Of a DNA stretch of 44,025 bases, positions 9,109 through 19,306 are shown piece after piece. This DNA is from Bryobacterales bacterium. GTDB lineage: Bacteria; Acidobacteriota; Terriglobia; Bryobacterales; Bryobacteraceae. Where the stretch lies: assembly GCA_025350625.1 (NCBI GenBank), contig JANXXL010000397.1, positions 1-44,025 on the forward strand, read 5' to 3'. The notes under the pieces were generated by a model. It had not been told where the DNA came from, made no database searches, and saw nothing but the letters and a program-made list of their open reading frames with translations. How positions within the stretch are numbered: position 1 is the first letter of the stretch; each line of letters starts with the position of its first letter. Both the position numbers and the translations under genes were made by a program.

Positions 9109-10285
9109 TGCGCTTCCACTTCTTTCCTGCGCGGACGGTATAGGTTCCGGGTTCGGCGTGGAACACGATGCCGGTTCGCACGCCGTCGATTTCGACTGCT
9201 CCGGCCTTGATCAGCCGCTCGGCGTCGGTTCGTGTCCCCGCGAGCTCAATGGCATGCAGCATTTGAGGAACGCGAAGATCCCCGGCTGAGCCGTAGTTGA
9301 CGACCGCGATGTCGGAAGGCTCCGCGCCCTGCCTTACCTCGCGATTAAAGTCGCCGAGCGCTTGCGAGGCGTCCGCCTGTGAGTGGAAATCGGCGACAAT
9401 GCGGCCGGCCAGCTCCATCTTCACGCCCATGGGTTCGCGCTGCTTCAGTGCGGAGATTTCAGGCAGCGATAAATCCGTCAGCAACTCCCAATACCGCCAC
9501 ATGAGGTGATCGCTGATCCCCATAACTTTGCGGAACATGATCTTCGGCGGCTCGGTGATGCCGATGTAGTTGTTCTTCGATTTCGACATCTTCTCGACGC
9601 CGTCGGTGCCTTCGAGCAGCGGTGTGGTCGCGACGATCTGCGGTGGCTGATCGTAGTCGCGCTGCAGCTCGCGCCCTACCAGAAGGTTGAACTTCTGATC
9701 TGTTCCGCCCAACTCCACGTCGCAGGCTAGCATCACGGAATCGTAACCTTGTGCCAATGGATAAAGGAGTTCGTGCATGGAAATGGGTGTGCCGTCCTTC
9801 AGACGGTTAGTGAAGTCATCGCGCTCGAGAATCCGCGCCACGGTGTATTTCGAGCACAACCGGATCATGTCTTCGAATTTCAATTTGTCTAGCCAGTCGC
9901 TGTTGAAGCGAATCTCGGTTTTATTCGCGTCCAGGATTTTGAAAACTTGCGCCTTGTAGGTTTCAGCGTTGCGGATAATATCGGCGCGAGTCATCGGAGG
10001 ACGCGTCACGTTGCGGCCGGTGGGGTCGCCGATCAAACCGGTCATATCGCCGATCAGGAAAATGACGGTGTGGCCTAGATCCTGAAAGTGCTTCATTTTT
10101 CGCAAAAGCACGGTGTGGCCCAGATGCAGATCGGGAGCGGTAGGATCGAAACCGGCCTTCACCCGTAAGGGACGCCCGGTCTTGGCGGCTTCCGTGAGGC
10201 GCGCTCTCAAATCTTCTTCGCGAATGATTTCCGAGAAACCTTTGGTGAGATAGGCGAGTTGTTCCGGGACGGGAGCAAAGGACAC
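9092..10285 (-). CDS. tyrS: Tyrosyl-tRNA synthetase
   Basis: The 397-residue class I synthetase has the HIGH-type motif DLHLGH, the KMSKS loop ([10 protein letters not shown]) and a C-terminal S4 RNA-binding domain ([18 protein letters not shown]). Length and motif spacing suit the shorter TyrZ-like lineage. It charges tRNA-Tyr in the cytoplasm. The start is GTG at 10285, just before the conserved SFAPVPEQL. The gene diverges from the DUF885 gene with 15 bp between start codons, occupied by a perfect 14-bp palindrome. TACAAT ends six bases before the GTG, which suggests a leaderless mRNA. Confidence 0.95.
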
Positions 10286-10299
10286 TTTACAATTGTAAA
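10286..10299. promoter_or_regulatory. Perfect 14-bp palindrome with TACAAT -10 elements on both strands
   Basis: TTTACAATTGTAAA is its own reverse complement and fills the gap between the tyrS GTG and the DUF885 ATG. It contains TACAAT on the plus strand (10288-10293, seven bases before the ATG) and TACAAT on the minus strand (10297-10292, six bases before the GTG). Transcription starting six to eight bases after each hexamer would begin at both start codons. It could alternatively, or also, be a repressor operator. Confidence 0.55.
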
Positions 10300-10300
10300 C

Positions 10301-11959
10301 ATGAAGGCGCTTGTGCTTATGACTTCATTCATCTCCATGGCTGCCGCGCAGACGCTGGCGGACCGCTTTTTCGACGAATACTACTTCCCGTTCAACCCGA
10401 CATCTGCCACCGCCGCCGGAGTTCATCAGTACGACGGCCAGATCGAGGATTATTCCAAAGCGGGAGTCGCCGCGCGCGTCGCCAAGCTCAAACACTTCGA
10501 GGCTGAATTCGCCAAGCTGCCGGCTGAACCCGACCGCGATCTAGTGCTTTCGAGCATTCGTGCGAGTCTGCTGGAGTACGAGACGGTTCGCAGCTGGGAG
10601 CGAAATCCGGACATCTATTCGAGCGGAATCACCAGCAGCGCGTTCATCATCATGAACCGGACTTTTGCGCCGCCGGAGGCGCGGCTGCGTTCGCTGATCG
10701 AGCGTGAGCGAAAAATGCCGCCGGTGCTTGCCGCAGCGCGCGCAAACCTGAAGAATCCGCCCAAAATCTACACCGAGATTGCGATTGAACAAGCGCCGGG
10801 AATGATCAGTTTTTTTCAGAAAGATGTCCCGCTAGCTTTCAAAAGTGTGACAGACCAGAAGCTTCTGACGGAGTTTCGAACGGCCAATGACGCAGTCATT
10901 AAAGCATTGCATGAGTATCAGGGCTACCTCCAAACCGACGTCCTGCCGCGATCGAACGGCGACTTTCGCATGGGCGCACAGACTTACTCCAGGAAACTTC
11001 TGCTGGAAGAAATGGTGGATATCCCGCTCGACCGGCTATTGGCAATTGGCTACGCAGATCTGCGCGCCAATCAAAACAAATATCGTGAGACCGCTGCGCT
11101 GATCGACAAGAGCAAAACGCCTCAGCAGATTCTCGCGGCCGCGCAGAAAGATCATCCGGCGCCGGATAAGCTGCTCGACGCATTCCGTAACACCTTAGTC
11201 AGCTTGCGGGACTTCGTGATTGCCCACAAGCTTATGACAATTCCGTCCCCCCGGCTGCCTGTTCTTGAAGAGACGCCGCCGTTCATGCGCGCGACCACCT
11301 TCGCCTCCATGGATACTCCGGGCCCTTTTGAGACCGTGGCGAAGGACGCGTTCTTCAATGTGACGATTCCGGAAAAGGACTGGACTCCGCAGCACGTCGA
11401 GGGATTCATGGGTCAATTCAATTGGGGTACGGTTCTCTCCACTGCGATCCATGAGGCCTATCCCGGCCACTACGTACAGTTTCTGTGGATGCATCAAGTT
11501 CCTTCGCGTGTGCGCAAACTGTTGGGCGCGAATTCGAATGCGGAAGGGTGGGCCCACTATTGCGAGCAGATGATGCTCGACGAAAAATATTCAACCGATC
11601 CAAAAATGAGGCTGGGCCAGCTTCAGGACGCACTCTTGCGCAATGCCCGATACATTGTAGGTATTGAGATGCACACCGGGAAACGGAGCTTTGAGCAAGC
11701 CGTCGACTTCTTCGAAAAAGAAGGCTACCAGACGCATGAAGTGGGTGTTGTCGAAACCAAGCGCGGCACTTCCGATGCTACCTATCTGTATTACACGCTG
11801 GGCAAGCTGCAAATCCTGAAGCTGCGGGAAGATTACAGAAAAATGCGCGGTAGCCAATTTTCGCTGCAGGAATTCCACGATCGCTTTCTGAAACAGGGCT
11901 TTCCGCCTGTCAAGATAGTGCGTAAGGAGATGCTGGGCGACGATTCTCCGACGCTGTAA
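10301..11959 (+). CDS. Exported DUF885 family protein (putative metallopeptidase)
   Basis: From ATG at 10301 the product is 552 residues. It opens with a signal peptide ([17 protein letters not shown], cleavage near AAA-QT). The DUF885 hallmark HEAYPGH, a HExxxGH variant of a zinc-protease motif, lies in [16 protein letters not shown] at about residues 384-399. [11 protein letters not shown] follows and may supply the third ligand. Such proteins are predicted exported or lipid-anchored peptidases; the substrate is unknown. The upstream TTG at 10259 was rejected because it lies inside tyrS and would spoil the signal peptide. TACAAT seven bases before the ATG suggests a leaderless transcript. 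Confidence 0.88.
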
Positions 11960-17429: not shown

Positions 17430-18359
17430 TCAACGAGTTTGGCGGAGTTCCACTTGTTTATAGACCGCGCGAGCGTCGTTAAATGTGGGGAAGGATAGTC
17501 CCGGTTGCTTGGCCGCGGCGGTGCCGGTGGCTACTCCCCAGCGAAGAGCCTCCGAGAAGGATTTCTTTTTTTCCATGCTCCATGCGAAGGCCGCGCCGAG
17601 CGCGTCGCCCGCCCCAATGGGGCACAGGGCTTCGATCCGTGGCGGGATGGCTTCGAATACTCCTTCGGGGGAGGACCCGATAGCCCCCCGCGCGCCCAGC
17701 GAGAGAATTACATTTTCCGGTCCCATGGCCTGCATCACATCGACGGCCTCCAGGCATTGCCCGCGAGTGATCAGCGCACGGCTAAGCAGGCGCTCGGCTT
17801 CGTGCTGATTGGGCATGATGACGGTGGGCTTCGCTTCGAGAGCGTGTTGCAGCGCCTCACCGTCGGTATCAAGCAGTGTCTTTACGCCGTGGCTCTTGGC
17901 CATTTCAATGATTTCGCAATAGTAGTGCGGCGGCACGCCGGGCTGGATGCTGCCGCAAATCATGAGCCACTGCGTTTTCGCAAGACGGCCTTCCACTTTC
18001 TTCTTGATTTCCTTAAGTTCACTCGCCTCGAGGGGCGCTCCGCGCTCATTCAGCTTCACGGTGAGGCCATGTTTATCTGAAATCGTCAGATTCGTGCGGG
18101 TCTCGGCGCGGACATGCACGATGTCGCTCGTAAAACCCAAGGTGCCCAGCAGTTTTTCGATGCGCTCGCCGGCGGAGCCGCCTGCGGTCAGCACAGCCAC
18201 GGTTTTCCCGCCAAAGGCGTGGACCACCTGGGACGCATTAATGCCCCGGCCACCCGCGGCTTCGCTTCGGTCCAGTATGTAACCGCGGTCCTCGAAGACG
18301 AGGCGGTCCGCCGTAATAATGCGATCAACGGCTGGATTGATAGTGAGCGTGAGGATCAA
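17430..18359 (-). CDS. PfkB-family hexose-phosphate kinase (1-phosphofructokinase-like)
   Basis: From TTG at 18359 the product is 309 residues and begins with the typical strand ILTLTINPAVDRII. It has GGRGINASQVVHAFGG (the PfkB N-terminal substrate motif region) and the C-terminal signature PIGAGDALGAAFAW with the catalytic Asp. This group phosphorylates fructose-1-phosphate, tagatose-6-phosphate or a similar sugar phosphate with ATP. A longer open frame exists but runs through the divergent gene. TACCAT (18371-18366) ends six bases before the TTG. The gene diverges from the EamA transporter with 14 bp between start codons. Confidence 0.9.
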   Translation of the reverse strand: MILTLTINPAVDRIITADRLVFEDRGYILDRSEAAGGRGINASQVVHAFGGKTVAVLTAGGSAGERIEKLLGTLGFTSDIVHVRAETRTNLTISDKHGLTVKLNERGAPLEASELKEIKKKVEGRLAKTQWLMICGSIQPGVPPHYYCEIIEMAKSHGVKTLLDTDGEALQHALEAKPTVIMPNQHEAERLLSRALITRGQCLEAVDVMQAMGPENVILSLGARGAIGSSPEGVFEAIPPRIEALCPIGAGDALGAAFAWSMEKKKSFSEALRWGVATGTAAAKQPGLSFPTFNDARAVYKQVELRQTR

Positions 18360-18373
18360 GTTAACATGGTAAC
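18360..18373. promoter_or_regulatory. 14-bp near-palindromic divergent promoter (pfkB / EamA)
   Basis: GTTAACATGGTAAC is a palindrome except for one mismatched pair. On the minus strand it contains TACCAT six bases before TTG 18359, and on the plus strand TAACAT (18362-18367) six bases before CTG 18374. The layout mirrors the tyrS/DUF885 palindrome with a different sequence. Predicted start points lie on both start codons. Confidence 0.5.
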
Positions 18374-19306
18374 CTGACCAGCGAAGAGCATTCCGCTGCA
18401 CAATTCCGCGCGCTGGCGGCGCTCGCCTGCGTGTGTTTTTTCTGGGGCACCACGTATTTGGGTATCCGCGTGGCGCTGGAATCGTTTTCGCCGGCGATGT
18501 TGATGTGCTTGCGGTATTCGATCTCGGGCGGTGCTTTGCTGATCGGCGCGCTAGTGGCAGGCGCGCGCCTGCCAACGATCCGGGAAGCGCGACAGACAGC
18601 TTTTAACGGCCTTTTAACCATCGCAGTCGGCACCGGATGCCTGGCTTATAGCGAGCAATGGATCCCCAGCGGCATGGCGTCGCTATTCGCCAGTCTGCAA
18701 CCTTTCTGGCTGGTAGGAACGGAAGCGCAGACGCCGGGCGGCGAGCGGCTGCACTGGCCGTCGATCGGCGGAATGCTGGTTGGGCTGGCCGGGGTAGCTC
18801 TGCTCATGACACCGGACGCCTCCGCCAGTCGAAGCGTGGGAACTCGATCGATGCTGGGCGGATTCTTTCTGATGCAATTCGGCGGGGCATTGTGGTCGGT
18901 AGGATCCATCTGGCAGCGGAGGATGGGAAGCCGTGTGCATCCCTTCGTGAGCGGGGGAGTCCAGCAACTCGCTACGGGAATCGCATTCGCAATTCCGGCG
19001 CTTCTCGACGGACGGCACGAAGTGTGGAACAGCAAAGGTTGGTTTGCAATACTCTACTTGGCCGTTTTCGGGGGAATTGTCGGCTACAGCGCCTTTATCT
19101 ATGCGATGCAGCACCTGCCAGTGGCACTGGTATCGATCTACACTTACATCAATCCAATAGTGGCGGTAGCGTTGGGATGGTGGTTCTACCGCGAACCGTT
19201 TGGGTGGCGCGAGACTGCCGCGATGGTGGTCATCTTCGCCGGCGTCACCATCGTGAAATGGACTACGGCGCGGTGCCCGCAGGACGCTTCAGTCCCGATC
19301 GAGTAG
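18374..19306 (+). CDS. EamA-family (DMT superfamily) transporter
   Basis: The product has ten membrane helices in two EamA repeats; FFWGTTYLGIRVALESFSPA is helix 1, and IVGYSAFIYAMQHLPVALVS lies in the second repeat. I place the start at CTG 18374, because the frame from there adds a soluble N-terminus (TSEEHSAAQFRALAALACV) and a complete first helix. The nearest GTG (18431) would truncate helix 1, and no ATG fits. CTG is a rare start, so this is uncertain. The family exports metabolites such as amino acids. The end overlaps the convergent zinc-ribbon gene by 18 bp. Confidence 0.85.
   Translation: MTSEEHSAAQFRALAALACVCFFWGTTYLGIRVALESFSPAMLMCLRYSISGGALLIGALVAGARLPTIREARQTAFNGLLTIAVGTGCLAYSEQWIPSGMASLFASLQPFWLVGTEAQTPGGERLHWPSIGGMLVGLAGVALLMTPDASASRSVGTRSMLGGFFLMQFGGALWSVGSIWQRRMGSRVHPFVSGGVQQLATGIAFAIPALLDGRHEVWNSKGWFAILYLAVFGGIVGYSAFIYAMQHLPVALVSIYTYINPIVAVALGWWFYREPFGWRETAAMVVIFAGVTIVKWTTARCPQDASVPIE

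Follow-up and report, generated by a model that had tools for sequence, protein, structure and literature searches.

Results

The pfkB and EamA genes diverge across 14 bp

The locus lies in a window of 44,025 nucleotides (the whole stretch of DNA analysed here) from the metagenome assembly of a soil/freshwater acidobacterium of the Bryobacteraceae (Acidobacteriota), a 5.09-Mb MAG in 417 contigs to which, among named relatives, MAGs of the Sulfopaludibacter type and of the Bryobacterales come closest. In this window the genes for a PfkB-family kinase and for an EamA-family transporter diverge from the two ends of a 14-bp gap, GTTAACATGGTAAC (Table 1). The pfkB product matched Pfam PfkB (2.4e-40) and, in NCBIfam, TIGR03168 (hexose kinase) above the cut-off and TIGR03828 below it. 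The EamA product matched Pfam EamA (1.2e-38), with YedA as its best NCBIfam match, below the cut-off. Note that, among the protein-family names used here, only pfkB and EamA were tested against libraries; tyrS, DUF885, DNA glycosylase, VWA, UbiA and DUF192 are names taken from the translations or from the original prediction.

Table 1. Features of the pfkB/EamA locus and of the tyrS/DUF885 gap (window coordinates)
Feature	Position	Strand	Basis
pfkB-family hexose kinase (1-phosphofructokinase-like), TTG start 18359	17430..18359	-	Pfam, TIGR03168; start fixed by relatives
EamA-family transporter (YedA-like), CTG start 18374	18374..19306	+	Pfam EamA; sole possible start before the first transmembrane segment
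Entire gap GTTAACATGGTAAC, holding two opposed -10 elements that overlap, AT common to both	18360..18373	.	Sequence and genus comparison
pfkB -10 element TACCAT, 6 nt from TTG	18366..18371	-	TANNNT at equal spacing in 38/56 distinct family pfkB genes
EamA -10 element TAACAT, 6 nt from CTG	18362..18367	+	TAnCAT + 6 nt + CTG in 10 distinct genus sequences
Predicted start of the pfkB RNA, leader of 0-2 nt	18359..18361	-	Inferred from the -10; 7 nt past the hexamer is 18359
Predicted EamA transcription start, 0-2 nt leader	18372..18374	+	Inferred from the -10; 7 nt past the hexamer is 18374
TGGTAACCT, putative relic of, or alternative, extended -10, overlapping the CTG	18367..18375	+	Matches the family-wide EamA -10 TGnTAnCCT; alignment with distant relatives
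tyrS (GTG) / DUF885 (ATG), 15-nt gap TTTACAATTGTAAAC, opposed -10s overlapping by AT	10283-10303	divergent	

The gap is bounded by CAA (18357-18359), which is the pfkB TTG on the minus strand, and by CTG (18374-18376), the EamA start codon. On both sides, counting 7 bases past the last base of the hexamer leads exactly to the first base of the start codon. The original prediction had described a near-palindrome of 14 nt with each hexamer 6 nt from its start, and its coordinates, spacing and symmetry proved exact: six of the seven base pairs of the 14-mer are palindromic, and the 14-mer occurs once in the 5.09-Mb assembly. A standard -35/-10 scan found no match to a -35 element at the standard spacing.

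The gap holds the opposed, overlapping -10 elements expected of a symmetric bidirectional sigma-70 promoter, and both hexamers are conserved in the genus. With two -10 hexamers opposed and overlapping by AT, RNA polymerase would act in one orientation at a time; in each, the RNA would begin on the start codon or no more than about 3 nt from it, and translation would then begin at TTG (pfkB) and CTG (EamA), presumably with low efficiency. Transcription from the two hexamers would be mutually exclusive, since RNA polymerase cannot occupy both orientations.

The TTG start of pfkB and its -10 element are conserved in the family

The first codon of pfkB opens the segment (M)ILTLTINPAVD, and the relatives align from residue 1 or 2. 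When start codons were compared across 56 distinct (related, and so not independent) family sequences, 49 had TTG, 4 had GTG and 2 had ATG, while the remaining one coincides with an alignment end and shows no start codon. Both results support the predicted TTG as the true start of the gene. Close orthologues of pfkB were absent from 68 other genomes of the class outside the family.

The upstream region is equally regular. In 38 of the 56 genes the distance from the end of TANNNT to the start is exactly 6 nt, and in 45 it is 5-8 nt; most other offsets have 0-3 cases (offset 3 has 7). Judged on these alignments, the spacing of the pfkB hexamer in the family is beyond chance. An SD-like 4-mer precedes the gene in 3 of the 56. 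The gene pair has the marks of leaderless genes, namely a -10 located 5-8 nt before the start, no Shine-Dalgarno sequence, and conservation of this arrangement in orthologues.

The exact position of the RNA 5' end admits two readings. RNA polymerase prefers a purine at +1, and a pyrimidine at this position is disfavoured for transcription initiation, so a purine start located 2-3 nt upstream would be favoured. The same promoters would then produce RNAs with ultra-short leaders, in which TTG and CTG are not 5'-terminal; we put the odds of this only a little short of even. In the window and its nearest relatives both genes have C at position -1 and usually a purine at -2 (AC before TTG, AC before CTG, GC before TTG), and some relatives have spacers of 7-8 nt. 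Against this, the 6-nt spacing is by far the commonest in the family, and with it the optimal start coincides with the first base of the codon. Overall, a leader of 2-3 nt starting at a purine fits the sequences as well as a strictly leaderless start does.

EamA starts at a CTG conserved in part of the genus

The EamA frame begins after the TAA contained in TAACAT (18362-18364), an in-frame stop that makes a start upstream of 18365 impossible. Downstream of the CTG, the next in-frame ATG, GTG or TTG is the GTG at 18431, inside the first transmembrane segment. The genus conservation of the CTG supports its use: a CTG placed 6 nt after TAnCAT is found in ten distinct genus sequences (the window, L080, L081, L083, L084, L085, L086, L087, L088 and L089), including three in which pfkB has moved away. 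In aligned EamA pairs, differences from the CTG onward lie mostly at third codon positions. Moreover, from the CTG to the conserved HPLF(G/P)AY segment, L086, L088 and L089 contain no further NTG codon. The CTG is thus preferred to the GTG at 18431, which was rejected as a start since it would cost the protein half of its first transmembrane segment and the CTG is conserved in relatives. Some other members of the genus start EamA at a TTG or GTG slightly downstream; as far as the compared sequences tell, the pfkB TTG is conserved family-wide and the EamA CTG in roughly half of the genus members sampled. L092 (G074) has CTT at the position of the EamA CTG and an out-of-frame TTG one base on, which suggests that its start was lost, frameshifted or mis-assembled.

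An unlikely alternative is that EamA is transcribed from an ancestral extended -10, TGGTAACCT, in which case the RNA would start near 18382, a downstream codon would be used and the CTG would be no start at all. Most of the family, distant members included, does have TGnTAnCCT as its EamA -10, 5-7 nt before TTG, and TAnCCT is retained in the closest relatives of the window. However, L086, L088 and L089 offer no ATG, GTG, TTG or CTG between the element and the HPLF segment, in L097 the TTG lies one base past TAACCT, too close for transcription from it, and in the window the next available start, at 18431, carries the cost to the transmembrane segment described above. As the sole EamA promoter, TGGTAACCT was rejected on the evidence of L086, L088, L089 and L097.

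The symmetry probably reflects two promoters rather than an operator

Across 15 copies of the 14-mer from the genus, no variation occurs at T3, A4, A7, T8, T11 and A12, which belong to the two TAnnAT hexamers, or at G1, G10 and C14. Of these copies 6 are palindromic at pair 2-13, which does not covary, and 1 at pair 5-10, which is mismatched in the other 14, so that the half-sites neither covary nor are symmetrically conserved. Since the invariant columns track the two hexamers and pair 2-13 shows no covariation, the gap is better described as two promoters than as an operator, in agreement with the original prediction. It is very improbable that the near-palindrome serves a dimeric regulator, with the promoters located elsewhere. 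Divergent genes often have an operator in common, and the palindromy of six pairs out of seven would suit one, but in the genus the symmetry is kept only at the -10 positions and the outermost G/C, and in other genera the palindrome is lost while the hexamers and their spacing persist.

About 31 of 61 family genomes retain the divergent pfkB/EamA pair. In distant genera the two genes are usually tens of bases apart, with separate hexamers, each 5-8 nt before a TTG. In L084 and L078 an insert of more than 100 bp splits the two promoters, and each keeps its hexamer and its start codon. Because elsewhere in the family the -10s are separate, tens of bases apart and followed by TTG on both sides, the symmetry appears to be derived, and the overlap is best read as a contraction of two formerly separate, leaderless-type promoters. 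Two similar CTAACAT-type cores border the insert of L084 and L078, an arrangement that resembles a duplication of the bidirectional core. Among the sequences compared, L068 (CALQCC020000042.1) is titled Bordetella parapertussis and matches G024, of the genus of the window (Bryobacteraceae); this title looks wrong.

That the arrangement is due to chance or to gene calling, with TTG and CTG not real starts, is hardly credible: these are rare starts and the genome is a 417-contig MAG, but the arrangement is repeated in many independent assemblies and the N-terminal protein homology begins at the TTG and the CTG.

TTG and CTG are exceptional among predicted leaderless starts in the genus

Leaderless translation is, to our knowledge, held to need AUG, or AUG/GUG in actinobacteria. 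To place the locus in its lineage we surveyed about 2,000 genes in 2.0 Mb (404 kb of the source genome and 1.6 Mb of a same-genus genome; G000, G076) for TANNNT 6-7 nt upstream of every codon within the start region. As the genes were called by ORF length, the z-scores should be read as approximate, and TTG or CTG classes of small size may escape. TANNNT preceded ATG 106 times (54 expected, z 7.0) and GTG 76 times (41 expected, z 5.5). In the same 2.0 Mb no -10 enrichment at 6-7 nt was found for TTG (31 seen, 40 expected, z -1.4) or for CTG (59 seen, 54 expected, z 0.6). The enrichment before ATG and GTG indicates that the lineage has leaderless genes and that they use these two codons. Since it is confined to them, the pfkB/EamA pair, which does not share the ATG/GTG starts of the other leaderless genes, is exceptional in its own lineage.

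The association with SD-like sites gave z 27.7 for ATG, 1.5 for GTG and -0.4 for TTG. A general habit of leaderless TTG or CTG starts in the genus was rejected: it was not seen in the 2 Mb, where TTG has no SD association either. Since its association with the -10 is strong and that with SD sites slight, GTG may be mainly a leaderless start codon in G000 and G076.

Published data agree. In the Acidobacteria, 13.3% of the genes were predicted to be leaderless (Zheng et al. 2011; PMC3160421). CTG and TTG were ineffective in mycobacterial leaderless reporters (PMC4633059), and non-AUG leaderless starts are much weaker in E. coli (PMC9031893). The original prediction had called leaderless TTG and CTG starts unusual, and both these data and our survey support it. 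The pfkB TTG and the EamA CTG would be real exceptions, unless a leader of 2-3 nt starting at a purine makes them work.

Overlapping -10 elements recur occasionally

The original prediction had also seen the layout at tyrS/DUF885 and taken it for a repeated promoter design. The shared layout stood, with opposed -10s overlapping by AT in both gaps; the repeated design was not well supported. In its 14-nt form the strict motif was found at 14 sites in 23 genus genomes and at 3 in the reversed control; 8 of the 14 are the pfkB/EamA locus and, among the 6 outside it, 2 are tyrS/DUF885. The 15-nt form gave 18 sites and 28 in the control, with no enrichment, and outside the pfkB/EamA locus these genomes show no enrichment of the strict motif. 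With looser criteria, a scan for divergent ORF pairs carrying a -10 on each side gave 5 in 2 Mb, where shifted spacings gave 0-4: pfkB/EamA, tyrS/DUF885, a DNA-glycosylase-like/VWA pair, a UbiA-like/DUF192-like pair and one more. The overlapping arrangement recurs occasionally and is not a dominant design; the case for a repeated design is weak.

In L173 a tyrS/DUF885 pair again flanks a similar core, and in L174 the core remains next to tyrS. The DNA-glycosylase-like/VWA-domain pair, with overlapping -10s (CATCCTAACATTGTAGTTATG), is found in L257 (G076 C1:185545-185565), its core also being present in G078 (L258). The UbiA-like (TTG) and DUF192-like (ATG) genes diverge 17 nt apart, with two opposed -10s, at about 208129-208147 of G076 C1; this TTG is possibly another leaderless one.

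Discussion

Our results suggest, with a probability of roughly 0.7, that the 14 bp between pfkB and EamA are a compact bidirectional sigma-70-type promoter whose two messages are leaderless, or nearly so, and start at TTG and CTG. Counted against it are the absence of a -35, the retention of TGnTAnCCT at 18367-18375 and the CTT of L092.

In bacteria, bidirectional promoters have been described in which symmetry of the -10 and opposed, overlapping -10s lead to divergent transcription (Warman et al. 2021, cited in PMC12825309). As in these promoters, the -10s of pfkB/EamA are opposed and overlapping, so that one polymerase binding event would exclude the other. The start sites of E. coli bidirectional promoters are commonly 18, 10 or 23 bp apart (PMC12825309), compared with a predicted distance of about 11-15 bp here. 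Unlike in the E. coli promoters, the pfkB/EamA hexamers overlap by only 2 bp and, because both genes are predicted to be leaderless, the whole gap would be promoter.

Like the leaderless genes of Deinococcus-Thermus (PMC12340547) and those predicted in the Acidobacteria (PMC3160421), both genes have a -10 about 6-7 bp upstream and no Shine-Dalgarno sequence. Unlike other genes with an adjacent -10, which in this genus start with ATG or GTG, they start with TTG and CTG; tyrS/DUF885, with similar opposed -10s, has GTG and ATG, the usual leaderless codons. As in mycobacterial leaderless initiation (PMC4633059), the start codon is predicted to lie at the RNA 5' end with no leader, but in mycobacteria only ATG and GTG work (PMC4633059), whereas here TTG and CTG are conserved in the leaderless position. 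Symmetric bidirectional promoters and leaderless genes with an adjacent -10 are both known; the variant described here joins the two within 14 bp and has non-RTG starts.

Since TTG and CTG have no genome-wide association with a -10, the leaderless reading depends on this locus being special. It is possible, if somewhat doubtful, that the ribosomes of the Bryobacteraceae achieve efficient initiation here at the UUG and CUG of strictly leaderless messages, while the lineage otherwise uses AUG and GUG. If so, something specific to the locus would permit it, be it the sequence context at the 5' end, an initiation factor or selection for expression that is weak and balanced. A leaderless-type TTG conserved in the family, with a CTG partner across 14 bp, is a natural test of the codons that the ribosome accepts at an RNA 5' end, and the locus illustrates the extent to which a promoter pair can shrink if both genes do without a leader.
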